From Cellulomonas sp. PhB143 (GTDB lineage Bacteria > Actinomycetota > Actinomycetes > Actinomycetales > Cellulomonadaceae), in NCBI RefSeq assembly GCF_003752595.1, contig NZ_RKIJ01000002.1, positions 1 through 64,000 of the forward strand: DNA of 64,000 bases. The letters run 5' to 3'. Numbering within the stretch: the first letter of the stretch is position 1; every line of letters starts with the position of its first letter. The position numbers and the translations under genes were made by a program. Of this stretch, positions 1 through 53,753 are shown one piece after another. Under the pieces are notes generated by a model. It was given only the letters and a program-made list of their open reading frames with translations. It had not been told where the DNA came from and made no database searches.

Positions 1-121
1 GCCGGGCCCGGGGGGGGGGGGCCGGCCGCCCCCCCCCGGGGCGCCCCCCCCGCGCCCCCCCCCCCCCCCCCCCCCCCTCTCCGCCCCCCGGGGGGGGGGC
101 CCCCCCCCACGTCTCGGCGGG
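1..121. other. Homopolymer-rich low-complexity start of window
   Basis: Bases 1-108 are almost only runs of G and C, with homopolymers of ten or more, unlike any other part of the window. Bases 109-121 read ACGTCTCGGCGGG, which matches the outer end of the right arm of palindrome family A (seen at 1048-1060). No gene is visible. The stretch may be a low-quality contig end produced where a hairpin-forming repeat could not be read; this is an inference. Confidence 0.6.
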
Positions 122-145
122 CGGCGGGTGGTCGCGGGTGGCGGG

Positions 146-928
146 TCAGCGGGCGGCCGCCCAGGCCGCGAGGGCGTCACGCACGAACCTCGCCCCGCCG
201 GCGCCGCCGTAGTGCGCCGCGAACCGCTCGTCCGCGACGTACGTCTCGCCCAGCCCGACGACGTATCCCGCCACGGGCTCGCCGCCCGCCCCGGGCGTGC
301 CCGGGATCGAGGCGAGCCAGCCGACGTGCTCGGCCGCGAGCGCCTGCGCCTCCTCCCCGGCCGGGTCCAGCCCCGCGCCGGCCGCCGACGCCCACCGCCC
401 GGCGAGGGAGCGCTGCCGCTCCTGCCAGGCGGTGCGGTCGTCGTCGGACATGCTGCGCCACCACGCGTCGCCCGCGGCGTAGGCGTCCGCACCCCACCGC
501 CGGGTCACCTCGTCCCGGTGGGTGGTGTGGTCGAAGCCGTCGAACATCTCCTGCGCCATGAGCCCTCCTCGCTCGTCGCGGGTCCCGGTGCGGTACCCGA
601 TCGTCCGCTCGACCGACGCGATCTGCCGCACCAGCCGGTCCTGCTCGCCCCGCAGCCACCCGAGGTGCGTGCGCAGGGCGGCGACCTCGTCGTCGCCGCC
701 GGCGAGCGCCTCCGCCACCGCCGGCAGGCCGAGGCCGAGCTCGCGCAGCAGCAGGATGCGCTGCAGCCGCACGAGCGCGTCGGCGTCGTAGTACCGGTAC
801 CCCTGGTTGCCGACCCGGCTGGGCCGCAGGAGCCCGACGGCGTCGTAGTGCCGCAGGGTGCGGCTCGTCGTGCCCGCCAGCCGGGCAACCTCCTGGATCG
901 ACCAGTCGCGCGTCGCCTCTCGCCTCAT
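146..928 (-). CDS. MerR-family regulator with TipAS-type ligand-binding domain
   Basis: Predicted one-component activator. The N-terminal 70 residues form a MerR winged helix (SIQEVARLAGTTSRTLRHYD, then GLLRPSR and a GYRYYD wing). A coiled segment follows, and residues about 110-250 match the TipAS antibiotic-recognition fold (EMFDGFDHTTH, WWRSMSDDD, HVGWLASIPG, YVADERFAAHYGG). The family senses thiopeptide-like drugs or other ligands and activates its own and efflux promoters; the ligand here is unknown. The start is placed at the ATG at 928 because a MerR-type promoter puts the expected +1 on that codon, giving 260 residues. A GTG nine bases upstream is the alternative. Confidence 0.85.
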   Translation of the reverse strand: MRREATRDWSIQEVARLAGTTSRTLRHYDAVGLLRPSRVGNQGYRYYDADALVRLQRILLLRELGLGLPAVAEALAGGDDEVAALRTHLGWLRGEQDRLVRQIASVERTIGYRTGTRDERGGLMAQEMFDGFDHTTHRDEVTRRWGADAYAAGDAWWRSMSDDDRTAWQERQRSLAGRWASAAGAGLDPAGEEAQALAAEHVGWLASIPGTPGAGGEPVAGYVVGLGETYVADERFAAHYGGAGGARFVRDALAAWAAAR

Positions 929-935
929 GCCCACC

Positions 936-966
936 ACGGTAGGAGCTGACGCAGCGTCAAGGTCAA
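936..966 (-). promoter_or_regulatory. MerR-type autoregulated promoter with 19-bp spacer
   Basis: Read on the minus strand, TTGACC (-35, 966-961) and TACCGT (-10, 941-936) are separated by exactly 19 bases. The spacer holds the perfect palindrome TGACGCTGCGTCA (959-947). A long spacer with a centred dyad is the hallmark of MerR-activated promoters. The -10 lies seven bases before the ATG at 928, so the transcript is predicted to be leaderless. Confidence 0.55.
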
Positions 967-993
967 CCCTCGCCCCCTCCGGTCCCCGGCTGA

Positions 994-1059
994 CCGCCGA
1001 GACGTCGAACTCCGCCCCTGAGATCGGAGATCTCGGGGCGGAATTCGACGTCTCGGCGG
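994..1059. repeat. Palindromic element family A, copy A1
   Basis: A 66-bp near-perfect inverted repeat. The left arm is 32 bases starting CCGCCGAGACGTCGAAC, the loop is GGA (1026-1028), and the right arm is 31 bases ending TTCGACGTCTCGGCGG. The arms differ by one mismatch and one bulged base. It lies just downstream of the HAD phosphatase stop, between two minus-strand genes, so it could act as a terminator. A GC-rich tandem CGGCGGG repeat continues to 1093. Copies A2 (7002) and A3 (52831) have the same architecture. Confidence 0.85.
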
Positions 1060-1093
1060 GCGGCGGCGGGCGGCGGCGGGCGGCGGCGGGCGG

Positions 1094-1813
1094 TCAGGGA
1101 AGCAGGAGGTCCGCCAGCTCCGCGGGGGTGCGGACGACGGCGCTCGCCCCCGCGGCCTCGACCTCCCCCGCCTCCGCGTAGCCCCAGGCCACGGCGACCG
1201 TCGGGATCCCGTGCGCCGCGGCGCCCCGCACGTCGTGCTCCCGGTCGCCGACCATGACCGCGCCTCCGGCGCCCGTCGGCACCCCCGACGCACCGAGCAC
1301 CGCGAGCGCGTGGGCGATCACGTCCGCCTTCGAGCTGCGGGGCCCGTCGTCGGCGTCCGCGCCGAAGACCGCGTCCACACCGCCCACCAGGAACCGCGCC
1401 AGGTCGAAGTGGTCGACGATCTCGCGCGCGAACACCTCCGGCTTCGAGGTCGCGACGGCGAGGCGTACGCCCGCCGCACGCAGCCGCGCCAGCGCCTCGG
1501 GGACCCCCGGGAACACCGAGTTGCCGCCGAGCATGCCGCCCGCCCGGAAGTACTGGCGGTAGACCGCGATCACCTCGTCCGTCCGCCCCGCCGGCACCCC
1601 GAGCCCGGTGAGGGACTGCGCGAGCGGCGGCCCGACCATCCGACGGAACCCCGCGTCGTCGGGCAGCGGGAGCCCCAGCTCGACCAGCGCCGCGCGCATC
1701 GAGGAGATGATCCCCGGCGCGGAGTCGGTGAGGGTGCCGTCGAGGTCGAGCAGGGCGAGGCGCGGCGGGCGGGCGAGCGCCGGTCCGGTCGCAGCGGTGT
1801 CGTCGGTGTCCAC
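1094..1813 (-). CDS. HAD-family hydrolase, phosphoglycolate phosphatase-like
   Basis: A 239-residue HAD phosphatase with the C1 helical cap typical of Gph and 5'-nucleotidase-like enzymes. Motif I is DLDGTLTDS (Asp23 nucleophile, Asp25 acid/base), motif II lies in AVATSKPE, and motif III/IV is MVGDREHDVRGA near residue 190. Such enzymes dephosphorylate phosphoglycolate or nucleotides in the cytosol; the substrate cannot be read from sequence. The first 17 residues (TDDTAATGPA region) are unconserved, so an internal start is possible. It is followed by palindrome A1. Confidence 0.85.
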   Translation of the reverse strand: MDTDDTAATGPALARPPRLALLDLDGTLTDSAPGIISSMRAALVELGLPLPDDAGFRRMVGPPLAQSLTGLGVPAGRTDEVIAVYRQYFRAGGMLGGNSVFPGVPEALARLRAAGVRLAVATSKPEVFAREIVDHFDLARFLVGGVDAVFGADADDGPRSSKADVIAHALAVLGASGVPTGAGGAVMVGDREHDVRGAAAHGIPTVAVAWGYAEAGEVEAAGASAVVRTPAELADLLLP

Positions 1814-1918
1814 GGAGGTCAGCGTCCCACGCGCACCGACCCGGCCGAAGCGCTAGCGTGCCCTCGACAGCCGGGACGGCGCGCGGGCGCCGTCCGACTC
1901 GACCACGGAGGCAGCACC

Positions 1919-2662
1919 ATGTCCGAGGCGACCACCGAGTCCCTGACCCAGACGACGATCGGCGTCGCCCGGCGCGTGTGGGCCACGGCGCTCGTGCGCG
2001 GCGTGCTCTTCCTCGTCCTCGGCCTGGTCATGTACCTGTGGCCCGACGTGGGCGGCAGCATCCTCACCTGGCTCATCGCCATCCTCTTCGCGCTCCAGGC
2101 GATCATCCTGTTCGTCGAGGCGGGCCGGCTGCGCGGCACCGACGCGGACGGGGCGAAGTGGCGCACCGCGCTCGGGGCGCTGGCGGCCGCGGCGGCCGTG
2201 GCGGTGCTGCTGTGGACCGAGGACACGTTCACGCTCATCCTGCGCGCCGTGGCGATCTGGGCCCTGGTCGCGGGCGTCATGGGCGTGATCTCCGCGGTGC
2301 GGGGCTTCCGGGCGCGGCGCCCCAACTGGGACTGGGAGCTGACGAGCGCGGTCTTCTGGGTCCTGTTCGGCGTGCTCGTCCTCGTCAAGCCCCTGGACGA
2401 CGTCGGCACGGTCATCACGGCGATGTCCGTCTTCCTCATCTTCACCGGCGTGGTGCTGACCGTCGGCGGGTACTCGCTGCAGGTCTCGGCGAAGGACGCC
2501 CGCACCGGCGCGGCCGGCGCGCCCGCCGCACCGGCGTCGGCAGCCGCACCGGCGCCCGCGCCCGCGCAGCCCCCGTCGCGCGGCACGGCCAGCAGCCTGG
2601 AGCAGGCGCCGCGCGACGCCCCGAGGGACGTCGACGAGGCGCCGCCGGGCTCGACCTCGTGA
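1919..2662 (+). CDS. HdeD/DUF308-family membrane protein
   Basis: A 247-residue protein with about six hydrophobic helices in three hairpins (LFLVLGLVMYLWP, ILTWLIAILFALQAIILFV, and later repeats). This is the HdeD/DUF308 pattern, in which proteins of unclear role are often acid- or stress-related in enterobacteria. The last ~65 residues are an Ala/Pro-rich, probably disordered tail. The ATG at 1919 follows GGAGGCAGCACC, a good ribosome site. The next gene starts within its stop codon, suggesting one transcript. A paralogue lies at 49524. Confidence 0.8.
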   Translation: MSEATTESLTQTTIGVARRVWATALVRGVLFLVLGLVMYLWPDVGGSILTWLIAILFALQAIILFVEAGRLRGTDADGAKWRTALGALAAAAAVAVLLWTEDTFTLILRAVAIWALVAGVMGVISAVRGFRARRPNWDWELTSAVFWVLFGVLVLVKPLDDVGTVITAMSVFLIFTGVVLTVGGYSLQVSAKDARTGAAGAPAAPASAAAPAPAPAQPPSRGTASSLEQAPRDAPRDVDEAPPGSTS

Positions 2663-3144
2663 CCCGTCGCCCGCCACGCTCCCCCGCGGCGAGCCTCGCC
2701 CGGGCCCTGCCCGCCGTGCTCTGCCTGACCGCCGCGGCGACGCTCGCCGCCTGCTCGGCGGACGACGACGCCGGGTCCCCCGCGCAGCAGCTCGCGGACG
2801 CCTGCGCGGACCAGCCGGGCGCAGAGAACATGTCCGTGGCGGGCCCGACCGTGACCGTCACGCTCGCCGCGTCGGCCACGAAGGACCACGACGCGCTCGC
2901 CACCTGCCTCGGCGACGCGTCCGGGATCGCCCCCTCCGTCAGCCAGGAGCTCACGGGTGACGACTCGGTGGAGCGGCTGCTGGGCCCGGACGGCATCAGC
3001 GTGGACGCGGGCGACTGGAAGGTCGGGGCGCAGATGCTCGTCGACGGCGAGCCCTTCGGCGAGGACACCCTGGGCGAGCTCACCGCCGGGACGCTCAGCC
3101 TCGACGACGTGAGGCTGCGGATGACCTACACCGACGTGTCCTGA
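2659..3144 (+). CDS. Small secreted lipoprotein of unknown function
   Basis: The GTG at 2659 overlaps the preceding TGA (GTGA), implying translational coupling with the HdeD-like gene. The 161-residue product has an Arg-rich n-region, a hydrophobic h-region and the lipobox LAAC (Cys32), so it should be anchored on the outer face of the membrane. The mature part, about 130 residues, contains two cysteines (DACADQ and ATCLGD) that could form a disulfide. I do not recognise the family. Its 3' end overlaps by 19 bases the 3' end of the convergent gene at 3126. Confidence 0.7.
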   Translation: MTRRPPRSPAASLARALPAVLCLTAAATLAACSADDDAGSPAQQLADACADQPGAENMSVAGPTVTVTLAASATKDHDALATCLGDASGIAPSVSQELTGDDSVERLLGPDGISVDAGDWKVGAQMLVDGEPFGEDTLGELTAGTLSLDDVRLRMTYTDVS

Positions 3145-3998
3145 CCCCCGCGCCGGGCGACGCCCGCCGCGAGGTGCTCGCGAGCGAACCGGAGAGACTC
3201 CACCAGGTCCGCCCGGCGCTCCGCCTCGGACCCCTTGCGCGTCGAGATCTCCACCACCACGTCCCCGGCCCAGCCCCGCTGCGCCAGCTCGAGCAGCACC
3301 TCGGCGCACGGCTGGGTGCCACGCCCGGGGACCTTGTGCTCGTCGAGGACGTTGCCGACGCCGTCGGCCAGGTGCAGGTGCTTGAGCCGGTCGCCGAACG
3401 CGCGGGCCATGGCGAGCGCGTCCTGCTGGGCGACTGCCGTGTGGGACAGGTCGAGCGTCACGGCCTCGTACCCGTGCTCCGTGGGGTCCCAGCCGGGCAG
3501 GTAGGCCACGACCTCGCGCCGCCCGCCCCGCCACGGGTACATGTTCTCGACCGCGACGGTCACGTCGGTCAGGCGCGACAGGTCGTGCACCTGCCGCTCG
3601 AACCCGGCCGCGTAGCTGCGCTGCCACCGGAACGGGGGGTGCACGACGACGGTCCTCGCCCCGAGCTCGACCGCCATGTCCACGGTGCGGGTCAGCTTGG
3701 GCGCGGGCCCGCCGCGCCACACCCGCTGGCTCACGAGCAGGGTCGGGGCGTGCAGGCTGCGGATCGGCACGTCGAACCGGTCGGAGAGCTGCTGCAGCGC
3801 GACCGCGTCCTGCGTCGACTCGTCGCCCCAGATCATGACCTCGACGCCGTCGTACCCCAGCTCGGCCGCCGTGCGGAACGCGTACTCGGCCCGCTCCGGG
3901 TAGACCGACGCGGTCGAGAGCGTCACGGGGTTCACGGGTACGGGGTTCACGGGTACGGGGTCGTGGTTCTCGGGGTCCCCCGACGTCGGCTCCGCCAT
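3126..3998 (-). CDS. Sugar phosphate isomerase/epimerase-like TIM barrel protein
   Basis: A xylose isomerase-like TIM barrel of the AP_endonuc_2 superfamily, about 290 residues. Conserved metal-site features are visible: GYDGVEVMIWG near the N-terminus, ARTVVVHPPF, VAVENMYPW, VTLDLSHTA, HLHLADG and the C-terminal VVVEIST. The Glu, Asp, His and Glu in these strands usually bind a divalent metal. Members isomerise or epimerise sugars or inositol derivatives; the substrate here is unknown. The start could be this ATG or one nine bases upstream. The N-terminus has a tandem 15-bp repeat coding VPVNPVPVNPV, probably recent slippage. Confidence 0.75.
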   Translation of the reverse strand: MAEPTSGDPENHDPVPVNPVPVNPVTLSTASVYPERAEYAFRTAAELGYDGVEVMIWGDESTQDAVALQQLSDRFDVPIRSLHAPTLLVSQRVWRGGPAPKLTRTVDMAVELGARTVVVHPPFRWQRSYAAGFERQVHDLSRLTDVTVAVENMYPWRGGRREVVAYLPGWDPTEHGYEAVTLDLSHTAVAQQDALAMARAFGDRLKHLHLADGVGNVLDEHKVPGRGTQPCAEVLLELAQRGWAGDVVVEISTRKGSEAERRADLVESLRFAREHLAAGVARRGGQDTSV

Positions 3999-4043
3999 GG
4001 CGCACACGATAGACGGGTCACCCGGGCGTCGCGTCCAGGCTCG

Positions 4044-6122
4044 CTACCCGCGCAGGGGCAGGGTGAGGGTCGCGGGCGGCCCGGGCCGGTCGCCGTCGTC
4101 GCGGCGCACCACGCGCACCGGCACGCCCCAGTCCTGCTGGGCCAGGTGGCAGGCGGGGAACACGTCGTCGGCGCCCTCGGGGACGACGTCGCACGAGGCG
4201 GCGCGCACGGAGACGTGCAGGACGCCGCCCTCCACGCCCGGGTCGACGACGAGGTCCCGGAACAGGTCGGTGCCCTCCCCCGCGCCGGCGAGCAGCAGCC
4301 CGGGCGGCGTCGCGGTGACGCTCAGGTGGGTGGACGGGCCGTAGCGGTCGTCGAGCCTCTGGCCGGGCGCGGGCGCGAAGGGCACCTCGAGCCGCAGCGG
4401 GCCGGCACCGACGTCGGTGACGGGCCGGCGGGTGCGGTGCGCGCCGCCGTCGAGCACCTGGCCGGCGAGCCTCGCGGGCACGGCGACGCGGATGAGCCGG
4501 TGCGCGGCCGACTCGACGACCAGCAGGTCGAGGCGGGCCCCGGGTGACGGTGCGCCGTCGGCGGGCGACCACGGCCGGCCGTCCACGAGGACGACGACGT
4601 CGCTCGGCTCGGCGAGTCCCGTCGCCAGGGTCGTGACCTCGCCACTGCCACTGCCACCGCCACTGCCACCGCGGTTGTCAGACCCTGGATCGTCCCCACC
4701 GGCTTCAGGGTCTGACAGGTCCGGGGAGCCGGGCGCGTACCGGCGCAGCGCGCCGTTGTAGGTGTCGGCGAGCACGACGGACCCGTCGGGCAGCGCCGCC
4801 ACGCCGAGCGGGTGCTGCAGGAGCGCCTGGCCCGCGTCCCCGTCGCGGTGGCCGAAGTCGAAGAGCCCCTGCCCGACGGCGGTGCGCACGACGGCGTCCG
4901 CCATGCCCACGGAGGCGTCGGGCGCCGGGTCGACGACGCGCAGCGCGGACGTCTCGGCGTCGGCGATCCACAGGCGCCCGTCCGGGCCCTCGGCGAGCCC
5001 CGACGGCTGCGCGAACCACGCCTGCGGCAGCGGCCCGTCGAGCAGGCCCTCGTTCAGCGTCCCGCCGAGGTGCGCGATCGTGCCGCGCCCGAAGGCCCAG
5101 AGCGTGTGCGTCCCGGCCGCCGCGACCACGAACGCGCCCATCGTCTCCGACCACAGGACGTCCCACGGCGAGGAGAGCCGCACGCTGCGCGCCGGCGCCG
5201 CGTCGTCGAGGTCGAACGGGCGGTCCACCGAGCGGCCCGCGGCGTCCAGGAGGTTGTCGCGGGCACCGACCATGAACGGCTCGCCGGTCCCGGCGACGGT
5301 GGTGACGGCGCCGTCGGCGAGACGCACGCCGCGCAGCGCGTGGTTGACGGTGTCGGCGACGAGCACGTCGTAGCCCAGCGGGCCGCGCAGCTCCGCGGGC
5401 ACCAGGCACAGTCCGTTGGGCTCGCTGAACCGGGCCTCCCCGGGGCCGCCGTCGACCAGGCCGCGCTCGCCGGACCCGATGCGCCGGACGAGGCTCTCGC
5501 CGTCGGGCGCGAGCTCCGCGAGGCTGTGGTGCCCCGCGTCCGCGACCAGGAGGGTGCCGCCGGGCAGGCCCAGCACCTTCCCGGGGAAGCGCAGGGTGCC
5601 CGACGCCGGGGCGGGCGGCACGTACGGGCCGGAACCTCGGTGCAGGGTGCCCTTCGCGTCGTGCTCCGCGACGAGCTCGTCCACCAGGGCCTCGAGCGCG
5701 GAGGCGTGGCCCTCGCCGGCCATCTGGGCGACGACGTACCCCTCGGGGTCGACGACCACGAGCGTCGGCCACGCCCGGGCGGTGTACGCCGACCAGGTGA
5801 CGAGCTCGGCGTCGTCGAGCACCGGGTGGCGCACGTCGTAGCGCTCGACGGCGGCGGCGAGCGCCGCCGGGTCGGCCTCGTGGGCGAACTTCGGCGAGTG
5901 AACCCCGACGATCACGAGCTCGTCGCGGTGCGCCTCCTCGAGCTCGCGCAGCTCGTCGAGGACGTGCAGGCAGTTGATGCAGCAGAAGGTCCAGAAGTCG
6001 AGGACGACGACCTTGCCGCGCAGGTCGGCGAGGGTCACGAGTGTGCCACCGGTGTTCAGCCAGCCGCGGCCGACGAGCTCGGAGGCGCGGACCCGGGGCA
6101 GGCGCGAGGAAGGATTCGGCAC
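4044..6122 (-). CDS. Thioredoxin-like/NHL-repeat protein (NHLRC2-like)
   Basis: About 692 residues. Residues 1-150 are a TlpA-like thioredoxin domain with DFWTFCCINCLHV, where CINC (48-51) is the redox pair. NHL beta-propeller repeats follow (LLVADAGHHSLAEL, VLVADTVNHALRG, LWIADAETSALRV, VVLADTYNGALRR), then a C-terminal beta domain. The order matches NHLRC2-like proteins; a redox or scaffold role is likely but unproven. No signal peptide is seen. GTG at 6122 is preferred because GGAG lies nine bases upstream; the reading frame stays open to 6224. A Gly/Ser/Asp-rich linker at 4640-4720 contains palindrome C1, apparently a tolerated insertion. Confidence 0.75.
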   Translation of the reverse strand: MPNPSSRLPRVRASELVGRGWLNTGGTLVTLADLRGKVVVLDFWTFCCINCLHVLDELRELEEAHRDELVIVGVHSPKFAHEADPAALAAAVERYDVRHPVLDDAELVTWSAYTARAWPTLVVVDPEGYVVAQMAGEGHASALEALVDELVAEHDAKGTLHRGSGPYVPPAPASGTLRFPGKVLGLPGGTLLVADAGHHSLAELAPDGESLVRRIGSGERGLVDGGPGEARFSEPNGLCLVPAELRGPLGYDVLVADTVNHALRGVRLADGAVTTVAGTGEPFMVGARDNLLDAAGRSVDRPFDLDDAAPARSVRLSSPWDVLWSETMGAFVVAAAGTHTLWAFGRGTIAHLGGTLNEGLLDGPLPQAWFAQPSGLAEGPDGRLWIADAETSALRVVDPAPDASVGMADAVVRTAVGQGLFDFGHRDGDAGQALLQHPLGVAALPDGSVVLADTYNGALRRYAPGSPDLSDPEAGGDDPGSDNRGGSGGGSGSGEVTTLATGLAEPSDVVVLVDGRPWSPADGAPSPGARLDLLVVESAAHRLIRVAVPARLAGQVLDGGAHRTRRPVTDVGAGPLRLEVPFAPAPGQRLDDRYGPSTHLSVTATPPGLLLAGAGEGTDLFRDLVVDPGVEGGVLHVSVRAASCDVVPEGADDVFPACHLAQQDWGVPVRVVRRDDGDRPGPPATLTLPLRG
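4676..4717. repeat. Palindromic element family C, copy C1, inside a coding region
   Basis: TGTCAGACCCTG (4676-4687) and CAGGGTCTGACA (4706-4717) are perfect 12-bp inverted arms around an 18-base loop. The element lies wholly inside the NHL-protein gene, in frame, where it encodes part of an acidic linker (LSDPEAGGDDPGSDN). The same arm sequence recurs at 15938-15983 in an intergenic hairpin. Confidence 0.75.
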
Positions 6123-6230
6123 GCCACCATTCTCCACTCCCGCGACCCCCGGCCCCCCGTTCCGCCGAGAGGCGGGGACCGTGCGGCCGGCACGGGGGCG
6201 GCCGACTACGACCACCTCCGTCACGAAGGG

Positions 6231-6259
6231 TAGGCACGCCTAAGTTCTTCGGATAGGTT
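6231..6259 (+). promoter_or_regulatory. Candidate promoter and operator of the heme oxygenase gene
   Basis: TAGGCA (6231) and TAGGTT (6254-6259) are spaced by 17 bases upstream of the heme oxygenase ATG. The perfect palindrome TAGGCACGCCTA (6231-6242) overlaps the -35. Heme oxygenases in actinobacteria are often iron-regulated by DtxR/IdeR, but this dyad has the wrong half-site spacing for the 19-bp consensus. Only an unidentified operator is therefore proposed. Confidence 0.3.
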
Positions 6260-6296
6260 ACCGCCCAGACGCACGACGACCCAGGAGAGACTGACG

Positions 6297-6989
6297 ATGA
6301 ACCCCACCGCCGCCCCCGCGACCCGTGGCGCGAGCGCCCCTGGCCTGCCGCTCTCCGTCCTCCTCCGCGAGGGCACCCGCGCCGACCACGAGCACGCCGA
6401 GGCGTCCGGGTTCATCGGGCTCCTGATGAACGGCAGCCTCGACGTCGCCGCCTACGCGGACCTCGCGGCGCAGCAGTGGGCCGTCTACTCCGCGCTCGAG
6501 TCCACGGGCCGCCTCGTGCGCCTGGACCCGCGCGCCCCGGGGCTCGTGCGCGACGAGCTCGAGCGCGTCCCGTCCATCGAGCGCGACCTGCGGTTCCTCG
6601 TGGGCGACGACTGGAAGCGCCACGTCCGGATCCTGCCGGCGACCAAGACGTACGTCGCGCGCCTGCTCGAGGTCGGCGTGGACCTGCCGGAGTATGCCGC
6701 CCACGCCTACACCCGCTACCTCGGAGACCTCTCGGGCGGCCAGATCGTGCGGCGCATGCTCGAGCGCGGCTATGGCCTGCACGAGGACGGCCTCGAGTTC
6801 TACACGTTCCGCGACATCCCCAAGCCCAAACCTTTCAAGGACGCCTACCGCGCGCGCCTCGACGCCCTCCCGCTCGACGCCGCCGAGCGCGACCGGGCGG
6901 TGGCCGAGGCCCAGCGCGCCTTCCGGCTCAACGCCTCGGTCTTCGCCGACCTCGGGGCCGTGCACCACGCCCGCCCCGCCTCCGCCTGA
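6297..6989 (+). CDS. hmuO: Heme oxygenase (biliverdin-producing)
   Basis: A 230-residue soluble all-helical heme oxygenase that oxidises heme to biliverdin, CO and ferrous iron. His31 in TRADHEHAE aligns with the proximal heme ligand, and YLGDLSGGQ is the distal-helix signature with the flexible glycines. FYTFRDIPKPKPFKDAYR near residue 175 is also family-typical. The length fits HmuO-type enzymes. It stands alone, divergent from the thioredoxin/NHL gene, with no heme-uptake genes in the window; its role is probably iron recovery from heme. It converges on the acetyltransferase gene with palindrome A2 between them. Confidence 0.93.
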   Translation: MNPTAAPATRGASAPGLPLSVLLREGTRADHEHAEASGFIGLLMNGSLDVAAYADLAAQQWAVYSALESTGRLVRLDPRAPGLVRDELERVPSIERDLRFLVGDDWKRHVRILPATKTYVARLLEVGVDLPEYAAHAYTRYLGDLSGGQIVRRMLERGYGLHEDGLEFYTFRDIPKPKPFKDAYRARLDALPLDAAERDRAVAEAQRAFRLNASVFADLGAVHHARPASA

Positions 6990-7001
6990 CCCGGCCCCCT
7001 T

Positions 7002-7067
7002 CCGCCGAGATGTCGATTTCTGCCCCTCGATTCGAAGAATCGGGGGCAGAAATCGACATCTCGGCGG
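7002..7067. repeat. Palindromic element family A, copy A2
   Basis: A 66-bp hairpin between convergent genes, ending on the base before the stop codon of the minus-strand acetyltransferase. The left arm (7002-7033) begins CCGCCGAGATGTCGATTTC and the right arm (7037-7067) ends AAATCGACATCTCGGCGG. The arms pair fully except for one bulged base. Compared with A1, several stem positions are changed on both arms so pairing is kept, and the bulge sits at the same place. A bidirectional terminator function is plausible. Confidence 0.88.
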
Positions 7068-7856
7068 TCAGGCGTGGGTGAACGGGCGGGTCGTGGCGAG
7101 GGCATGGAAGCCGAGCCGCTCGAGGATCGGTCGGCTCGTCGGCAGCGCGTCCACCTGCAGGTAGCGGAACCCCGCGTCCGCCGCGACCCGCGCCCGGTGC
7201 GCGACGACGGCCCGGAAGACCCCGCGCCCGCGCCAGTCCGGCACGGTCCCCCCGCCCCAGATCGAGGCGAACTCCGTGCCGTGGTGCAGCTCGACCCGAC
7301 CGCCCGAGACGGTCCGTGCCCCGGACCGGGCGAGCACCGCCTCGACGGACCGCGGCGTGGCGGCGAGCCCGGCGAGCACCGCGCGCCCGACGTAGCCGTG
7401 CTCCCCGCCGAACACCTCGTCGTGCAGCGCGACGAGCGCGTCGGCGCCGGCGACGTCCTCGACCGGATCGAGGCGCACGCCGTCGGGCGGGGCGACGTCC
7501 AGGTCGAGGTCGGCGATCTCGGCGACCAGCAGCGTCTCGTCCGGCTCACGCGTCAGGCCGGCCGCGACGAGCCGCACCGGGAGGTCCACCGGCTGGTCGT
7601 ACGAGTAGTGCTTCCACTCCCACGGCAGGCCCGCCCGCGCGAACCGCTCGGCCTGCGCGGCGATCACCTCGCCGACGTCGCGGGCGCCGAGGCCGTCGAG
7701 GTCGGCCCAGGTCACCGCGTTCCAGCCGTCATCCGACGAGACCACGCGCACCACGCCACCCTCGCGCTCGACGACGGCCGACGCCTCGGCGGCGGGGTTG
7801 CGCCGGACCTGCTCGTCGTAGGCGGCGAGCACCCGGGCCGCGTCCTGTGTCTGCAT
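7068..7856 (-). CDS. GNAT-family N-acetyltransferase
   Basis: A 262-residue protein with a C-terminal GNAT fold. The acetyl-CoA-binding motif A is PDWRGRGVFRAVVAHRA (R-x-G-x-G type) near residue 205, followed by GFRYLQVDALPTS and a final LERLGFHAL strand-helix. The N-terminal half (DAARVLAAYDEQVRRNP onward) is a divergent GNAT-like half, common in actinobacterial two-lobe members. The substrate is unknown. The ATG at 7856 (MQTQD) is chosen over one 36 bases upstream because conservation-like sequence begins there. Confidence 0.8.
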   Translation of the reverse strand: MQTQDAARVLAAYDEQVRRNPAAEASAVVEREGGVVRVVSSDDGWNAVTWADLDGLGARDVGEVIAAQAERFARAGLPWEWKHYSYDQPVDLPVRLVAAGLTREPDETLLVAEIADLDLDVAPPDGVRLDPVEDVAGADALVALHDEVFGGEHGYVGRAVLAGLAATPRSVEAVLARSGARTVSGGRVELHHGTEFASIWGGGTVPDWRGRGVFRAVVAHRARVAADAGFRYLQVDALPTSRPILERLGFHALATTRPFTHA

Positions 7857-7919
7857 GGCGGAAGTCGACCAGACCGGCGGGCACGCTGTCACCGGGAAAT
7901 CCCGGGGGGAGACGGGCTG

Positions 7920-8228
7920 CTACCGGTCCGGGTCGGGATCCGGGCCGAGTTCCGGTTGCTCCTGGGGCTCGATGCGGCCGACGACGCGCACCCGCACCGC
8001 GACCCCGTGCACCTGCGGCGGCAGGCCGTCCGTCATCGTCGCGCTCTCGACGTTGACCTGGAGCACGTAGTCCACGGCCCCCGCGTCCCCGGGATCGACC
8101 GGCTCGCGCACGGCGTCGCCCGCGGCGCCGTCGGCCGGCGCGATCCCGACGCCGGCGATCCCGGCCCGGTCCGCGAGCGAGGCGCGCAGCGCCTCCTTGG
8201 CCTCCCGGGCCTCGTCGATCGTGGCCAT
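7920..8228 (-). CDS. Small protein resembling the N-domain of the adjacent protease
   Basis: A 102-residue protein starting 32 bases after the protease stop, likely in the same transcript. ATG at 8228 follows GGAGGAGCAGCC. It has an N-terminal helix (IDEAREAKEALRASLADRAG), then strands GVGIAPADG, YVLQVNVE and VAVRVRVVGRIEP, then an acidic Pro-rich tail. The order helix, G-x-G-strand, Y/F-x-x-x-V strand and V-x-V-R strand echoes residues 5-110 of the protease. I infer a free-standing pro-domain-like partner, perhaps an inhibitor or chaperone; no named family is recognised. Confidence 0.6.
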   Translation of the reverse strand: MATIDEAREAKEALRASLADRAGIAGVGIAPADGAAGDAVREPVDPGDAGAVDYVLQVNVESATMTDGLPPQVHGVAVRVRVVGRIEPQEQPELGPDPDPDR

Positions 8229-8260
8229 GGCTGCTCCTCCCGAGCCGTCCGGCACACGGG

Positions 8261-9334
8261 TCAGGCTCCGAGGAGCCGCGCTCCCAACGCGCCCAGGACG
8301 GCATCGATCGGGTTGACGTACGTCAGCCCGTGGCCATTCTGACCCCCGCGCTCCGACCCGGCAAAGAGCAGGCCGAGGGCCACGCCGTCGGCCCGGTACA
8401 CCAGCGACCCCGAGTCCCCGCCCTGCGAGAAGGGCGTCTGCCCGGTGGGCTCGACCTCGATCTGGTCGTCGAACCGCAGCACGCCCAGGCCCTCGCCGTA
8501 CCCGACCGCGACGTCGTCGAGCTCGATCGCCGTCACCCGCCCCGCGGTCGTCCCCGTGGTGCGGCCGATCTTTGCGACGCTCTCGCCGCCCACCGGCGAC
8601 GCGGTCGTCGTGATGCGTCCCGCCGGGTACGTGGGATCGACGTCCGGGTCGTCGAGCAGCGCGAGCGCGCAGTCCACCGTCGCCGTCCGTCCCGCGACGA
8701 GCTCCACGAACGACGCGAGGGTCCCGACGGCGTCCTGCGGCGCCGCCCCACCGTCCGCCGGGCCCGGCTGGACGACGACGTCCCCCACCGCGCCGCCCGG
8801 CCCGCCGACGAGCACGTGGTAGTTGGACAGCGCGTACCGCGCCCCCGCGGGCGCCGACCCCGGGGCCACGAGCTCGACGAACGCGCCGAGCGTCCCCGCG
8901 GTCACCGCGACGTTGGCGATCGAGACGCCGGGACGCAGCGGCCGCACGCGCCCGGTCTCGCCGAGCGCCTGCGCGGACGCCACCGGCGGGCGCGGCCCGA
9001 ACCCGCCGTCGGGCGCGGAGGCGTCCTCGGGCGTTCCGCCCCCGGCCTCGAGGGACAGCGCCCGGACCGGGCCGGTCTCGCGCAGGTCCGCGCCGGGACC
9101 GAGCTGCGCGACCAGCGACTCCGCGATGCCCCGGACCTCGGGGACCTCGTAGCGCACCGCGATCTCGAACGTCTCCTCGTCGTCGGGCCCGACCGGGGCG
9201 AGCCCGATCGCCAGCCGCGGCGTGGCGCGCAGCCCCGCGGTCTGCGCCGCGATCTCCTCCCCCCGGGTCGCGTAGAGCTCGCTGGCGTACTCGGCGAGCT
9301 GGGCCTTGACCTCGCGTGCGGCGTCCCTGTCCAT
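8261..9334 (-). CDS. Trypsin-like serine peptidase (S1 fold)
   Basis: A 357-residue chymotrypsin-fold peptidase. The putative triad is His173 (LSNYHVLVG), Asp221 ([11 protein letters not shown]) and Ser308 (GGDSGSLV). An N-terminal helical plus beta domain of about 120 residues precedes it. No signal peptide is seen with the ATG at 9334, so it may be cytosolic, unlike classical secreted trypsins. The upstream open frame overlaps the divergent sigma-factor gene and is disregarded. It is followed by a small protein resembling its own N-domain. Confidence 0.75.
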
Positions 9335-9454
9335 GCGCCCGAGTCTTGCCCACGCCTCCGACACGCGCCCGCCGTCCCCGCCGCCGGGCGCGTGGCTGCA
9401 TCCGCGCGCGCCGCGGCGGGAGAAGGAGCGGACGTGCCCCGGGCACACCGACAA

Positions 9455-9467
9455 CTGCACAGTGCAG
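9455..9467. promoter_or_regulatory. Candidate operator between protease and sigma-factor genes
   Basis: CTGCACAGTGCAG is a perfect 13-bp palindrome in the divergent intergenic region (9335-9533). It lies about 65 bases before the sigma-factor start. TAGGTT at 9484 could be a -10 for the plus-strand gene. The regulator is unknown. Confidence 0.25.
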
Positions 9468-9533
9468 GCGCGCCTCGCTCGGGTAGGTTGCCGTGCAGAG
9501 CACACCGCCACACCACGAGGGGCCGGAGACGCA

Positions 9534-10109
9534 GTGACCTCACCCGACGGCACGCGGGCGGACGCGGACGCCCGCGTGACCGCCGCGTTCGTCGCGGGGG
9601 ACGACGCCGGGCTGGCCGAGGCCTACCGGCGCTGGGCGGCGCTCGTGCACACGGTCGCCCTGCGCTCGCTCGGCAGCCGGGACGACGCCGAGGACGTCAC
9701 CCAGCAGGTGTTCGTCGCGGCGTGGCGCGGCCGGGAGCGGTTCGACCCCGCTCGGGCGAAGCTCTCGACCTGGATCATGGCGATCGCGCGCCACAAGATC
9801 GCCGACGCCCACGAGGGCCGGTCGCGGGCGCGGCGCCAGCAGCAAGCCGCCGCGACCTCGGTTCCGAACCCCGTGGGAGAGAACGACCCGGTCGCCGGCG
9901 CGACCACGGACCGTGTCGTCGTGGCGGACGAGCTCGCGCGGCTCGGCGACCCGGGCCGCACGATCCTCGAGCTCGCGTTCTTCCGCGACATGACCCACAC
10001 GCAGATCGCGCAGGAGCTCGGGCTCCCGCTCGGTACGGTCAAGAGCCACGTCAGACGAAGCCTCGTCAGGCTCCGCGCACGGTTGGAGGTGGACGGTGCA
10101 GCACGTTGA
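9534..10109 (+). CDS. ECF-type RNA polymerase sigma factor
   Basis: A 191-residue extracytoplasmic-function sigma factor. Region 2 includes [17 protein letters not shown] and [15 protein letters not shown]. Region 4 is [18 protein letters not shown] followed by the recognition helix [18 protein letters not shown] at 9534 follows GGAGACGCA. Its 3' end overlaps the next gene by 14 bases, as is usual for a sigma with its own anti-sigma. SigK-like by partner type; the stress or signal is unknown. Confidence 0.92.
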
Positions 10110-10896
10110 TCCGGAGGTCCTCGCGCTCCTCGCGCTCGGCGAGCGGGCCGACGACGTCGCGAGCGCCGACGAGCGCGCCCACCTCGAGGGCTGCGACGCC
10201 TGCCGCGCGGAGGTCGCGCAGCTCGCCGAGGTGGCCGCCACCGGTCGCGCGGTCACCGACGACGACCGCCCCGTCGACCCTCCGCCCGAGGTGTGGGACC
10301 GCGTGCGCGCCGAGCTCGGGATCTCGACCCCTGCGAGCCCCGAGCCCTCGACCCCTGCACCCCCGGAGACCCGTGCCGTCACGCCCCTGCGCCTGCGCCG
10401 CCCGCGCCGCCGCCGGTTCTCCGCCGGGGCCCTCGCGGCGGCCGCGAGCGCCGCGCTCGTCGTCGGTGTCGGCGGCGGCGTGCTGTGGGGGCAGGGCGGC
10501 GGGACCCCCGAGCCTGCGCCGACCGGCACGTCGACCGGCTCCGCCCCGACCGGCGAGGCCACCGTGGCGAGCGCGACGCTCCAGCCGCTGCCGAGCTGGA
10601 AGGGCGCGACGGGCGAGGCCCAGGTCGAGAAGGCCGCCGACGGCACCCGGCAGGTCGTCGTGACGGTGGACGCCCCGGCGTCGGACGACGGCTTCCACGA
10701 GGTCTGGCTCATCAAGCACGACCTCAGCGGGCTCGTCAGCCTCGGCGTGCTCGACGGCGGCACGGGCACCTTCCCCGTCCCCGACGGCCTCGACCTCGCG
10801 CAGTACTCGCTGGTCGACGTCTCCGAGGAGGGCTACGACGGGAACCCCGCGCACTCGGGCGACTCGATCGTGCGCGGGGGCCTCACCCCGGCCTGA
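10096..10896 (+). CDS. Membrane anti-sigma factor, RskA type
   Basis: A 266-residue, single-pass membrane protein. The N-terminal ~80 residues carry an anti-sigma zinc-binding motif, HLEGCDACR (H-x3-C-x2-C), followed by a membrane helix ([21 protein letters not shown]). A Thr/Ser/Pro-rich spacer leads to an extracytoplasmic RskA/anti-sigma-K domain ([40 protein letters not shown]). GTG at 10096 lies within the end of the sigma gene, so the two are coupled. It should hold the sigma factor inactive until processed by proteases. Confidence 0.88.
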
Positions 10897-10929
10897 ACGG
10901 GGCGCGGCCCGGCCTGACGCCGCCGCCCG

Positions 10930-13900
10930 TCACCGCAGGACGAGGTACCCCGTCCTGCCCGACGACGCCGCGTGCGTCGCGTCCCCGGCGTACGCGACGG
11001 TCAGCGCGTGCAGCCCGCGGGCGCCCGCCGGGACCCGCACGGACGCGGTGCCCTTCGCGGACAGCGACGCCGTGCCGACCTGCGTCCCGGCGGCGTCGCG
11101 GACCACCACGGTCCCCGTCGGGAAGGGCTTGCGCAGCGGGGTCTCGTCGACCACCGCGACGGCGACCGTCACGGTGCTGCGGCTCGTGGCGAGCGGCGGC
11201 ACGGCCAGCGCGACGACCGAGGTCCGCTCCAGCGGGGCCGGCGTCACGCTCGGGTCGAGGCCGAGCACCGCGGCGAGCTTCTGCACGGCTGTGGCGGCGT
11301 CGCCCGACAGGAGCGCGTGCTCCGCGTCGCTGGTCAGGACGGCGTGCCCGTCGACCGCGCTGCCGTCCACCACCGCCTGCTGCGCGAGGTCGCGAGCCAC
11401 CGAGACCACCGGGTCGGCGTCGGTCCAGGCGTCGGCGCCGCCCAGCTGCCCGGCGGCCCGGTAGAGCAGGCGCAGCGCCTTCTCGGGGTCCGCCACGGTG
11501 CCGTCGTCGGCCCAGACGTCCGCGTCGAGCACGGCCTGGACGGCAGCGGCGGCCTTCCCCGTCAGGTCCCCGACGAGCCCCTCGAGACGGTCGCGGGGCG
11601 CGTCGGTGCGCAGGCCCCAGCCGTAGGCGAACTGCGGGTCGTAGCCCGCGTCCCCCACGTTGTCGGGCACGTGGTCGTCGCTGCTCGGCCACGTCACCGG
11701 CAGCCGGCCGGTGAACGGGCTCTCGCCGAAGAGCACGTCCGCCACGCCCTCGCCCTCGGTGCCGGGCAGCCACGAGGCGACGAGGCCGTCCATCTCGTCG
11801 AGCTGGTCGGCGACGAGCTGGGGACGGCCGGAGACGACCAGGACGACGCAGTCCATCGCGCCGCAGACCGTGTCGATCGCCGTGCGGTCCTGCGCGCTCA
11901 GCGTCAGCGAGAACTGGCTGTCCGCGCCGTAGCGGACGTCGCCGACGCCCTCCGCGTAGGGCTTCTCGCCGACGACGACGACGCCGACGTCGGCCCCGTC
12001 CGTGGGCGCGGAGGCGTCGGGGCTGACCGTCACGTCGCCGGAGGACGCCGCGGTGATCGCGTCGCCGATCGTGGTGCCCCGCGTGATCTCCCCCGCCCCG
12101 CCCTGCCAGGAGACGGACCAGCCGCCGAGCTGGCGGCCCAGGTCGTCGGCGGTGGAGCCCGCGACGTACACGTCCGCGTCGTCGGCGAGCGGCAGGACGC
12201 CGTCGTTCTTCAGCAGCACCTGCGACTCGGCGGCCGCCTGCCGGGCGACGGACCGGTGCGCGTCGGAGCCGAACGCGTCCTGCTCGCTGCGGTCGGCGAA
12301 CGGGTGGTCGAAGAGCCCGACGGCGAACTTCTGCGTCAGGATGCGCCGGACCGCGTCGTCGACGCGGGCCTCGCTCACGACTCCGGAGGCGACGTTCGCC
12401 TCGGTCGCCGAGACGAACGCCGCGTAGTTGTAGGGGGCCATCGCCATGTCGACGCCGCCGTTGACGGCGCGCGCCGCCTTCTGCTGGTAGGTGCCGCCGG
12501 GCAGCTTGTCGATGCCTTCCCAGTCGCTGATCGTGAAGCCGTCGAACCCGAGCTCGCCCTTGAGCAGGTCGGTGTTCAGCGCCCCGTTCTCGTGCATCCG
12601 GACCGAGTCCGCCCCGCCGATCGACATCGCCGAGTACGACGGCATCACCGACCCGACGCCCGCGGCGATCGCCGGCCGGTAGGGGTCGACGTAGAGCCGG
12701 TCGAGCTCGGCGGCGTCGGCCACGCGGGTGACGCCCTGGTCGATGGGGTAGCCGCTGCCGGTGACCGACTCGTCGTACGTCGTCCCGCCGTCCCCGAGCC
12801 AGTGCTTGGCGGTCGCGAGCACGGTGCTCGGCGAGTCCATGTCGGCCGCGTCGCGGCCCTGCAGGCCGGTGATCGCGGGCGCGGCGAACGCCTTCACGAG
12901 CGCCGGGTCCTCCCCGAACGACTCGTAGCTGCGGCCCCAGCGCTCGTCGCGCGTCACGCACAGGCACGGAGCGAACGTCCACGGGATGCCGGTCGAGCGC
13001 ACCTCGGTCGCGGTGACCGTCCCCGCCTCCTCGACCAGGCCGGGGTCGCGCGTCGCGCCGAGGCCGATGTTGTGGGGGAAGAGCGTCGCGCCCACCACGT
13101 TGTTGTGCCCGTGCACGGCGTCGACGCCGTAGATCATCGGGATCTGCAGCGGCGTGCTCAGCGCCTGGCGCTGGTAGCCGTCCACCATGTCGGCCCAGCC
13201 CTCGGGGGTGTTCTGCGCCGGCACGGAGCCGCCGCCGGAGAGCACCGAGCCGAGCCCGAGCGTCGCGACGTCGTCGGCCGAGGACAGCCCGAGCCGCTCC
13301 GCCTGCGTCATCTGGCCGACCTTCTCCGCCAGGCTCATGCGGCCCAGCAGGTCGTCCACCCGGTCCGCGGTCGCCAGCACGTCGTCGAGGTACGCCATGC
13401 CGTGCGCGTTGACGACGACCCGCGGGGATGCCACGACGTCGCCGGCGACGGTCAGCGCCACCGGGACGGTGAGCGCCTCCGCCGGCTCGTCGGCGGCGGC
13501 CGTGACGACCTCGAACGGCTGCGTGGCGCCCGACTCGGTCCCGGCGGGGAACGTCAGCGTCCCGCCGAAGTCCTCGTAGTCCGTCCCGGCCTGCGCGGTG
13601 CCGCCCGTCCCGGGCCCGTAGCCGACCTCGACGTCGGAGGCGAGGGGCTCGCCGTCGGACGTCGTGACGCGCACGTCGACGCTCGCCGTGTCCCCCGCGT
13701 CGACGAGCGTCACGGGCGGCGCGGTCACCGTCGCGGCGACCGCCGCGCGGGGCGAGCCGTAGATCTGCACGTCGTCGATCGCCCACCCCGTCCGCGGCGT
13801 GTCGGTCGGCATCGTGATCGCGTAGCCCCACGACCGGGTCAGCGAGAGCTCGCCGTCCTGCGCGCTCGCCGGGCCCGGCTGGTAGTCGCCGCGGAGCGTG

Positions 13901-15849: not shown

Positions 15850-15937
15850 GAACGCACTCCGTTGTGGTCACTGGCTGAGCGGGGGTCCGACAGGCCGAGA
15901 GTAGACCCGATCGCCCGGCCCGCAACCGGCGCCCGGA

Positions 15938-15983
15938 CTTGTCAGACCCTCGCTCGCCTATGGCGGAGCGAGGGTCTGACAAG
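15938..15983. repeat. Palindromic element family C, copy C2
   Basis: Perfect 18-bp arms, CTTGTCAGACCCTCGCTC (15938-15955) and its complement (15966-15983), flank a 10-base loop. It sits between the beta-helix lipoprotein stop (16001) and the GH3 start (15849), both on the minus strand, and could terminate the upstream operon. The outer 13 bases match copy C1 inside the NHL-protein gene. No obvious sugar-repressor (CebR/CelR-like) operator was seen in the rest of this gap. Confidence 0.8.
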
Positions 15984-16000
15984 CCGTTGGGTGAGCGGGG

Positions 16001-17923: not shown

Positions 17924-17932
17924 GGGGTGCTC

Positions 17933-19443: not shown

Positions 19444-19548
19444 GAGGTCCTCCAGAGGTCGTGTGGTGATGTCCTCCATGGAGCGCCTCGAGCCTGTGAG
19501 CCGGCTTTGCGGGACGTCAGCGCGCGGTGCGAGTTCCTCCCGCCCCCT

Positions 19549-19606
19549 GTCGAACACGCCATCCGTCTCGTTCCGGGGGCCCGGTACGGCACAGATCACG
19601 TGGTCG
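19549..19606. repeat. Palindromic element family B, copy B1
   Basis: A degenerate inverted repeat: left arm CGAACACGCCATCCGTC, right arm ending ATCACGTGGTCG, around a GGGGGCCC core. It overlaps the 3' end of the AbiEi-like gene and supplies its TGA stop (19596-19598). Much of the length (from CGAACACGCCATC through GGTACGGCACAGAT) matches copy B2 at 20671 in the same orientation. Confidence 0.65.
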
Positions 19607-51188: not shown

Positions 51189-53753
51189 ATGACCACGGAC
51201 CGTACGGCCGTCGGCGAGGTCGACCTCGCCGTCAGCGGCATGACGTGCGCCTCCTGCGTCGCGCACGTCGAGAAGCGGCTCGCGCAGGTCCCCGGCGTCG
51301 AGGCGACGGTGAACCTGCCGCTGGAGTCGGCGCACGTCGTCCTCACCCGGGACGTCGCCGACGCCGAGCTGCTGGCCGCGGTCGAGCGCGCCGGGTACAC
51401 GGCGCGCGTGACGCGGCGGCGGACGGCCGACGGCGGCGGGCAAGCGGGACACTCGGCGCACTCGGGGCACTCGCCGTCCGAGCACGCGCTCTCCGGCCAC
51501 TCGATGCCCGAGGGCCACGAGATGGCCGACGGCGAGGACACGTCCGCGCCCACGCCGGACCGCGGCACCGACCTGCGCCGACGGTTCGAAGTCTCCGCGG
51601 TCCTCGCCGTCCCCGTGGTGCTGCTCTCGATGGTCCCGGCCCTGCAGCTCCCGGGCTGGCAGTGGGTCGTCGCCGCGCTCGCGCTGCCCGTCGTCGTGTG
51701 GGGGGCGCTGCCCTTTCACCGCGCGGCGTTCCGGGCCGCGCGGCACGGCTCGTCGACCATGGACACGCTCGTCTCGATCGGCGTCGTCGCGGCGACGCTC
51801 TGGTCGCTGTGGGCGCTGCTGCTCGGCGGCGCGGGCGAGATCGGCATGCAGATGGAGCTGTCGCTGCTGCCGTCGCGGACCCACGAGGGGCCGCCGGAGC
51901 TGTACTTCGAGGTCGCCGTCGTCGTGACCGTGTTCCTGCTCGGCGGCCGCTGGGCCGAGCACCGCTCGCGGCGGCGCGCGGGCGATGCGCTGCGCTCGCT
52001 CCTGGAGCTTGGTGCCACGGAGGCCGAGCGGGTCGTCGACGACGGACCGCAGGGCGAGCGCCGCACCGAGCGGGTCCCGGCCGCCGAGCTGCGCGAGGGC
52101 GACCTCTTCGTCGTCCGCCCCGGGTCCACGGTCGCGACCGACGGCATCGTCGTCGAGGGCTCGAGCGCCGTCGACACCTCGCTCCTGACCGGCGAGCCCG
52201 TGCCCGTGGACGTCGGCCCCGGCGACGACGTGACGGGCGCGACCGTCAACACCTCCGGGCACCTGGTCGTGCGGGCCACCCGCGTGGGCGAGGAGACAAC
52301 GCTCGCGCAGATCGGGCGGCTGGTCACGCAGGCGCAGACCGGCAAGGCGCCCGTCCAGCGGCTCGCCGACCGGATCTCCGCCGTGTTCGTGCCGGTCGTG
52401 CTCGGCGTCGCGGTGCTCACGCTCGTCGGCTGGCTGCTCGCCGGCGCCGCCGTGTCGTTCGCGTTCACCGCCGCCGTCGCGGTGCTGATCATCGCCTGCC
52501 CGTGCGCGCTCGGCCTCGCTACCCCGACCGCCCTGCTCGTCGGCACGGGCCGCGGCGCCCAGCTCGGCGTCCTGATCAAGGGCCCCGAGGTGCTCGAGTC
52601 CACGCGCCGCGTCGACACGGTCGTGCTCGACAAGACCGGCACCGTCACCCAGGGGCGCATGACGCTCGAGACGGTCGTGCCGGCGCCGGGCACGGATGCC
52701 GACGACGCCCTCGCGCACGCCGGAGCGGTGGAGGCGCTGAGCGAGCACCCGATCGCGCAGGCGGTCGCCGACGCCGCCGCCAGCTCCGCCGCTCCCCCCT
52801 CCGCCGCTCCCCCTTCCGCCGCTCCCCCCTCCGCCGAGAAGTCGAATTCCGCCCCTGTTTCGCCCGTTTCAGGGGCCGAATTCGACGTCTCGGCGGACTC
52901 AGGTCCCTCCACGGGGGCCGACGGCGTCGTGGTCGGCTCGCTGCAGGCGTTCGGCTTCCGCAGCGTCCCCGGCGGCGGCGTCGAGGCCGTCGTGCGCCGC
53001 GCCCACTCGGGCCTGTCCCCCGCCTCCGGGACCGTCCAGCTCGGCGCGTCGCTCAACGCGCGCCGCGTCGTCGTCGGCCGCCTCACCTGGATCGAGGAGC
53101 AGGGCCTGACGGTCCCCGCCGAGGTGTCCGACGCCGTGGCGCGGGCCGAGGAGTCCGGCGCCACCGCCGTCGTCGTCGCCTGGGACGGCGCGGCCCGCGC
53201 GGCGCTCGTGCTGCGCGACCGGGTCAAGGACACCTCCGCCGAGGCCGTCGCCGAGCTCGTCGCTCTGGGGCTGCGGCCGATGCTGCTCACCGGCGACGGC
53301 GAGGGCGCCGCACGCACCGCCGCCCGCGCCGTCGGGATCGACGACGCCGACGTGATCGCCCGCGTCCTGCCCCAGGACAAGGTCGACGTCGTCGGCCGCC
53401 TGCGGTCCGAGGGACGCGTCGTGGCCATGGTGGGCGACGGCGTGAACGACGCCGCGGCGCTGGCGGGCGCGGACCTCGGCCTCGCGATGGGCACCGGCAC
53501 GGACGTCGCGATCGAGGCGAGCGACATCACGCTCGTGCGCGGCGACCTGCGCTCGGCCGCCACGGCGATCCGCCTCTCGCGCCGGACGCTGCGGATCATC
53601 AAGCAGAACCTGTTCTGGGCGTTCGCCTACAACGTGGCGGCGATCCCGCTCGCGGCGGCGGGCCTGCTCAACCCGATGATCGCGGGCGCGGCGATGGCCG
53701 CGAGCTCGGTGATCGTCGTCGGCAACTCGCTGCGCCTGCGCCGCGCCGGCTGA
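51189..53753 (+). CDS. copA: Copper-translocating P1B-type ATPase
   Basis: An 854-residue Cu(I) exporter. One N-terminal HMA domain with GMTCASC (Cys20, Cys23), then a His/Met-rich linker (GHSAHSGHSPSEHALSGH). Eight helices with CPC (437-439) in the transport helix. TGEP actuator loop, DKTGT (Asp481 phosphorylated), SEHP in the N-domain, and GDGVND. Residues about 533-570 after the SEHP helix contain four AAPPS repeats and the palindrome A3, an insertion extending the N-domain loop in frame. ATG follows GAGGAGGACACC. Controlled by CsoR. Confidence 0.95.
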   Translation: MTTDRTAVGEVDLAVSGMTCASCVAHVEKRLAQVPGVEATVNLPLESAHVVLTRDVADAELLAAVERAGYTARVTRRRTADGGGQAGHSAHSGHSPSEHALSGHSMPEGHEMADGEDTSAPTPDRGTDLRRRFEVSAVLAVPVVLLSMVPALQLPGWQWVVAALALPVVVWGALPFHRAAFRAARHGSSTMDTLVSIGVVAATLWSLWALLLGGAGEIGMQMELSLLPSRTHEGPPELYFEVAVVVTVFLLGGRWAEHRSRRRAGDALRSLLELGATEAERVVDDGPQGERRTERVPAAELREGDLFVVRPGSTVATDGIVVEGSSAVDTSLLTGEPVPVDVGPGDDVTGATVNTSGHLVVRATRVGEETTLAQIGRLVTQAQTGKAPVQRLADRISAVFVPVVLGVAVLTLVGWLLAGAAVSFAFTAAVAVLIIACPCALGLATPTALLVGTGRGAQLGVLIKGPEVLESTRRVDTVVLDKTGTVTQGRMTLETVVPAPGTDADDALAHAGAVEALSEHPIAQAVADAAASSAAPPSAAPPSAAPPSAEKSNSAPVSPVSGAEFDVSADSGPSTGADGVVVGSLQAFGFRSVPGGGVEAVVRRAHSGLSPASGTVQLGASLNARRVVVGRLTWIEEQGLTVPAEVSDAVARAEESGATAVVVAWDGAARAALVLRDRVKDTSAEAVAELVALGLRPMLLTGDGEGAARTAARAVGIDDADVIARVLPQDKVDVVGRLRSEGRVVAMVGDGVNDAAALAGADLGLAMGTGTDVAIEASDITLVRGDLRSAATAIRLSRRTLRIIKQNLFWAFAYNVAAIPLAAAGLLNPMIAGAAMAASSVIVVGNSLRLRRAG
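52831..52896. repeat. Palindromic element family A, copy A3, in frame inside copA
   Basis: A 66-bp element with 27-bp arms (two mismatches) around a 12-base loop. The left arm starts CCGCCGAGAAGTCGAATTC; the right arm ends TTCGACGTCTCGGCGG. It is read through in frame as SAEKSNSAP then GAEFDVSAD. It is preceded by a 15-bp tandem repeat (GCTCCCCC-TCCGCC). The termini match A1 and A2, so the element appears able to enter coding regions without breaking them. Confidence 0.85.

Follow-up and report, generated by a model that had tools for sequence, protein, structure and literature searches.

A dispersed 66-bp palindromic family with covarying arms in Cellulomonas sp. PhB143, probably a mobile DNA element

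The window analysed here is a stretch of 64,000 nucleotides at one end of a contig of Cellulomonas sp. PhB143, the genome of which (3.2 Mb) is assembled in 17 contigs. Two 66-bp hairpins of one family (family A), here termed A1 and A2, lie beside genes for a HAD-hydrolase-like protein, a heme oxygenase, and a GNAT-like protein, and a third copy resides in a copper P-type ATPase gene (Table 1). A1 is 34 nt past the stop of the HAD-hydrolase-like gene; A2 is 12 nt past the heme oxygenase stop (6989) and directly adjoins the stop of the convergent GNAT-like gene. Both thus lie just downstream of a stop codon, as the original prediction had stated. The nearest named relatives of the heme oxygenase are from Cellulosimicrobium, Isoptericola, and Puerhibacterium (~67% identity). 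In Isoptericola variabilis, the heme oxygenase stop is followed after 7 nt by a perfect hairpin of 29 bp with an unrelated sequence (L059 after 837), and Puerhibacterium has a hairpin related to, and covarying with, this one (L058 after 10621); these would represent other hairpin families in sister genera. The window also contains hairpin family B (GCCGAACNCGCCATCTGT...; 20670-20731 and 33337-33633), with several copies clustered in the window and a motif that has only 8 matches per strand in the genome, as well as inverted repeat C (GCCGCGAGTTCGATGCT...; 43038-43112), the arms of which are 91% complementary.

Table 1. Family A copies and associated features in the window.
Feature	Coordinates	Strand	Remarks
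A-type arm, outer end	109..120	-	ACGTCTCGGCGG; contig starts in homopolymer junk
Copy A1, 66-bp hairpin	994..1059		24/25 outer pairs, inner 6-bp stem, triloop GGA, bulged T26
HAD-hydrolase-like gene	1094..1813	-	ORF/gene call; name read from sequence
Heme oxygenase gene	6297..6989	+	Name read from sequence
Copy A2, 66-bp hairpin	7002..7067		25/25 outer pairs, inner 6-bp stem, triloop GAA, bulged T26
GNAT-like gene	7068..7892	-	ORF; name read from sequence
Copper P-type ATPase gene	51189..53753	+	HMA, E1-E2 ATPase, and hydrolase domains; host of third copy
Third copy of family A	52831..52896	+	In-frame inside copper P-type ATPase gene

A1 and A2 are both exactly 66 nt long and have the common ends CCGCCGAGA...TCTCGGCGG. 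Their minimum free energies are -59.7 and -60.4 kcal/mol, respectively, when folded as RNA, and -38.1 and -39.5 when folded as DNA; fold z-scores are -10 to -14, and an equally good fold was obtained in 0/200 shuffles. Read from both sequences, the two copies differ by two-sided changes at outer-arm pairs 10, 16, and 20 and at four inner-stem pairs, and by one-sided changes only at pair 17 and at one loop base. The original observation of perfect or near-perfect hairpins that differ by paired changes is confirmed.

Family A comprises about 80 copies scattered across the genome. The 15-nt arm motif has 438 matches genome-wide (vs. 27 for the reversed control), and 72 copies match both arms (control 0). 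Copies were collected with sequence-only patterns, which retrieved 72 to 81 copies (reversed control 0); because these patterns carry N at the variable stem sites, the copies were not selected for pairing there. We read 78 copies together with their surroundings, all of which are exactly 66 bp; one additional copy is 67 bp. These are loci of a single genome that cannot be dated, and collection by similarity under-samples decayed copies. Arm positions 1-9, 11-15, and 21-25 hardly vary, which contradicts the earlier view that sequence is not what is constrained; variation is restricted to arm positions 10 and 16-20 and to the 16-nt core, which usually adds 5-6 pairs around a loop of 3-4 nt. Base pairing falls to background right outside the 66-bp boundary, so that a hairpin continuing into the flanks is ruled out. 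Although A1 and A2 share the step of their bulge (T26), the conserved bulge that had been proposed from them does not hold for the family: it occurs at this step (step 1) in only 21/78 copies (27%), at step 2 in 13, and at step 3 in 10, and 13/78 copies have a tetraloop without a bulge.

Among 69 intergenic copies, 35 lie between convergent, 27 between tandem, and 7 between divergent genes, whereas 10, 34, and 25, respectively, are expected from the available intergenic space (gene calls were made with our own codon-usage script). The median distance of copies from a stop codon is 23 nt, and the upstream stop is the nearer one in 21/27 of the copies between tandem genes. A similar context distribution has been published for REPs (PMC3733652). 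At one locus (L082 2914-3874 = C10:78413-79373), a 960-bp stretch holds three A copies in alternation with two small genes, each encoding ~100 aa.

Several contig ends appear to involve hairpins of this type. G/C homopolymer junk directly follows CCGCCGAGAMGTG at window positions 1-120, at the start and end of contig C4, at the start of C7, at the ends of C11 and C12, and internally at C10:54222; base 13 of CCGCCGAGAMGTG at these breaks is G, as in sister families of family A, vs. C in family A itself. The breaks are probably hairpins unreadable to sequencing or assembly; likewise, the arm near the start of the window probably belongs to a hairpin left unassembled, and the window likely begins with ~110 bases of artefact. 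A-type hairpins at three further contig ends (L206, C3 end; L207, C12 start; L225, C13 end) are apparently interrupted by a transposon that has GGCGGTYTC ends and encodes a transposase-like C-terminus. The C3 and C12 junctions have a common loop triplet, TTC, as if duplicated, and the C12 and C13 junctions are at equal distance from the hairpin end; a search with the 28-aa transposase-like C-terminus gave no family placement. Insertion sequences that target REPs are known (PMC1525189).

Seven copies lie within called genes, all at one frame offset (an eighth candidate is doubtful, being in a weak 179-aa gene call). The host genes include those for the copper P-type ATPase, an EttA-like ABC-F protein, UreF, an AMP-binding enzyme, and an MFS transporter. 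The encoded peptides are mostly variants of (S/P)AE(K/T/M)SNSAP.....GAEFD(V/F/I)SA(D/E), and divergence is greatest for the copy within the AMP-binding gene; the third copy in the window encodes SAEKSNSAPVSPVSGAEFDVSAD (plus one flanking base per end), residues that are absent from relatives. For the two of the seven host genes that were compared, encoding the ATPase and the ABC-F protein, relatives are without an insert at the corresponding linker, which is variable in both. Offset 2 of the element often contains a stop, and offsets 0 and 1 are mostly open; given two open frames, the occurrence of a single frame in 7/7 copies has a chance of about 0.016.

The two arms of a copy vary together. 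The same six-site haplotype is present on both arms in 36/78 copies, compared with 5.4% expected from arms of different copies. Mutual information between partner sites is 0.22-0.62 bits, vs. a mean of 0.06 for same-arm pairs, and neighbouring sites within one arm are nearly unlinked (near linkage equilibrium). Paired cells and the covariation score are above all 500 shuffles and all slid controls. The compensatory covariation predicted from A1 and A2 is therefore real and far beyond chance (0/500 shuffles; 36 arm-matched copies). The original prediction had set selection on structure against arm differences that break pairing as often as they preserve it; in a hand tally of departures from the commonest pair, 111 keep Watson-Crick pairing vs. 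83 that break it, so that pairing is kept only somewhat more often than it is broken.

The A pattern was found in 0/58 relatives, which include three congeners, and the exact pattern has no match in named GTDB genomes. Sister families are present in two other genera, and one of these is shared by two species of another genus, G026 and G298, with flanks that are about 89-97% identical. Across 14 shared copies (322 pairs), 34 changes are one-sided and 8 are two-sided, vs. 1.9 two-sided changes expected under independence (nominal P 0.0009), an expectation that takes no account of hot spots (e.g., position 16) and thereby overstates the two-sided excess. In 5/8 two-sided changes, one Watson-Crick pair is switched for another. 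Relative to G026, copies L164, L170, and L172 are missing from G298, and L171 and L168 are remnants; at L168/L188, the G298 orthologous hairpin is seemingly reduced to GCCGAGAAGTG followed directly by CTTC, as if deleted between the arms.

Thus, the covariation on which the original prediction rested stands, but it does not demonstrate that the folded form has been under selection. Compensatory changes can also arise without selection when replication switches template from one inverted-repeat arm to the other, a mechanism described in the literature by which both arms change at once (PMC8794818); broken pairs are numerous relative to compensated ones, and one-sided changes at orthologous copies outnumber two-sided ones; an RNA-specific signature is absent in the features examined; and gene-internal copies pair equally well (24.1/25, vs. 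23.9/25 for extragenic copies), which is a weak argument in that intragenic copies may simply be young.

By one alternative, selection acts on every copy as a hairpin in RNA that terminates transcription or protects the 3' end, working in both directions where genes converge, and the compensatory changes reflect the RNA fold. The strong 3'-end and convergent bias, the very stable folds, the excess of pairing and covariation over all shuffles, and the unrelated long hairpins just past the same heme oxygenase stop in 2/14 named relatives are consistent with this, but we regard it as rather unlikely. Terminators require neither invariant blocks nor a fixed 66-bp length, and the in-frame intragenic copies pair as well as the others. 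In addition, 0/97 flanks have 4 or more T in 8, and no U-tract follows a stem in window positions 1-20000; a U-tract terminator is rejected on both counts. Mismatches on the transcribed strand of tandem copies comprise 6 G-U vs. 12 A-C, which shows no preference for RNA wobble. The C(GNA)G triloop, present in about half of the copies, is split evenly between the mRNA strand (8) and the opposite strand (8), and this lack of strand preference, together with the other loops of the sister families, rules it out as an RNA signal. There is no Rfam match at gathering score in the window. Taken by themselves, the wobble, loop-orientation, and U-tract results neither exclude nor support an RNA role, and termination or mRNA 3'-end protection is plausible as a secondary effect at some copies.

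Alternatively, the differences between copies might have been inherited from a small number of founding subfamilies with separate palindromes, in which case there would have been little repeated compensatory change. Some haplotypes do recur (CATTCC in 6 copies; TATTCC, AATTCG, and AATTCC in 4 each), and mismatches often set one common allele against another, as with C-C and G-G at position 20. Against this, 20 distinct matching haplotypes are found among the 36 arm-matched copies, mutual information reaches 0.62 bits between partner sites compared with the low same-arm average, and paired changes occur at orthologous copies of two close species; we consider such an origin improbable. A scan of 440 kb around the copies found, beyond the 67-nt copy, two one-mismatch arm matches outside elements, both in genes; single arms are not dispersed across this sequence, and DNA-uptake-type dispersed single arms are rejected. 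A primary role as a palindromic binding site for a host DNA-binding protein (e.g., in chromosome organisation), spread by recombination, would fit the nearly invariant blocks and variable spacers of each arm, but it is highly improbable given this lack of dispersed single arms, the absence of family A from three congeners, and the fact that binding needs neither a 66-nt near-perfect palindrome nor in-frame insertion.

The constant length, the invariant blocks, the patchy occurrence, and the insertions in-frame argue for a mobile element with blocks that are recognised in trans, and we infer that family A is probably a REP/RPE-like mobile DNA palindrome that is non-autonomous and has a constant unit of 66 bp. 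A putative trans-acting activity would spread the element and would need the constant blocks of each arm. Insertions would persist where they are harmless, just 3' of stops and above all between convergent genes, with purifying selection leaving copies 3' of genes; in-frame insertions would be tolerated in flexible protein linkers, to which the 66 nt would contribute 22 codons in one reading frame. Template switching in the hairpin may copy a change from one arm to the other at the DNA level, and/or a folded single-stranded DNA mobile intermediate may keep the arms complementary; the two are not separable here, and both act on DNA. A Y1 transposase (PF01797, RAYT) gave no match in the PhB143 genome, and control genomes were matched. 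No duplicated flanks indicative of target-site duplication are apparent by eye among the 78 copies, and no clean empty site was found.

A more speculative proposal, which we hold to be possible, is that family A is a self-templating mobile hairpin: one arm would be rewritten from the other whenever the element moves or replicates, only the recognition blocks would stay fixed, propagation would proceed without a Y1/RAYT transposase, and the covariation would be a mutational by-product. If so, the family would explore sequence space yet stay palindromic, and such covariation would mislead covariation tests for structured RNA. More generally, because DNA-level arm copying can yield the same pattern, strong stem covariation among dispersed copies need not imply selection on an RNA fold. 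Its 80 copies and close sister species make the system well suited to separating template-switch correction from structural selection. Family A appears to be an undescribed protein-invading palindromic family in actinomycetes, with no counterpart in Rfam or in the literature searched.

In comparison with known systems, family A resembles intrinsic (Rho-independent) terminators in being a GC-rich hairpin just past stop codons, but differs in the absence of a U-tract, in constant sequence and length, and in copies inside ORFs. Template-switch hairpin maintenance (PMC8794818) explains changes on both arms without two separately selected mutations; it is known from RNA genes, whereas family A is a dispersed repeat for which we infer arm copying. 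Bacterial MITEs (Correia/NEMIS, RUP, ERIC) are likewise short inverted-repeat elements, some of which are fused in-frame to genes (PMC2229807); they share terminal inverted repeats with family A, although the latter is inverted repeat over nearly its entire length; no target-site duplication was apparent by eye, and no parent IS was seen in the 440 kb scanned for single arms. REPs and REPINs (GTAG and CGTC super-families) are also palindromes dispersed in many copies, most of which lie near stops and between genes that are convergent or co-directional (PMC3733652). Family A differs from them in its longer stem (about 31 bp), its intragenic in-frame copies, and the lack of a Y1/RAYT transposase match in its genome, although CGTC REP families are also without a dedicated transposase (PMC3733652); furthermore, there is no unpaired GTAG/CGTC tag at its ends, where pairing reaches both 66-bp limits, and no common tag outside. 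RPEs are 105-146 bp long, with 12-bp contiguous terminal repeats, and occur in intracellular alphaproteobacteria (Ogata et al., 2000; reviewed in PMC2229807); family A, at 66 bp, is almost wholly self-complementary and belongs to a high-GC actinomycete, and the comparison is by published description, with no claim of homology. No mobiliser is known for either, and both are palindromic hairpin repeats that lie between genes and in-frame in conserved proteins, for family A in seven intragenic copies of one frame.
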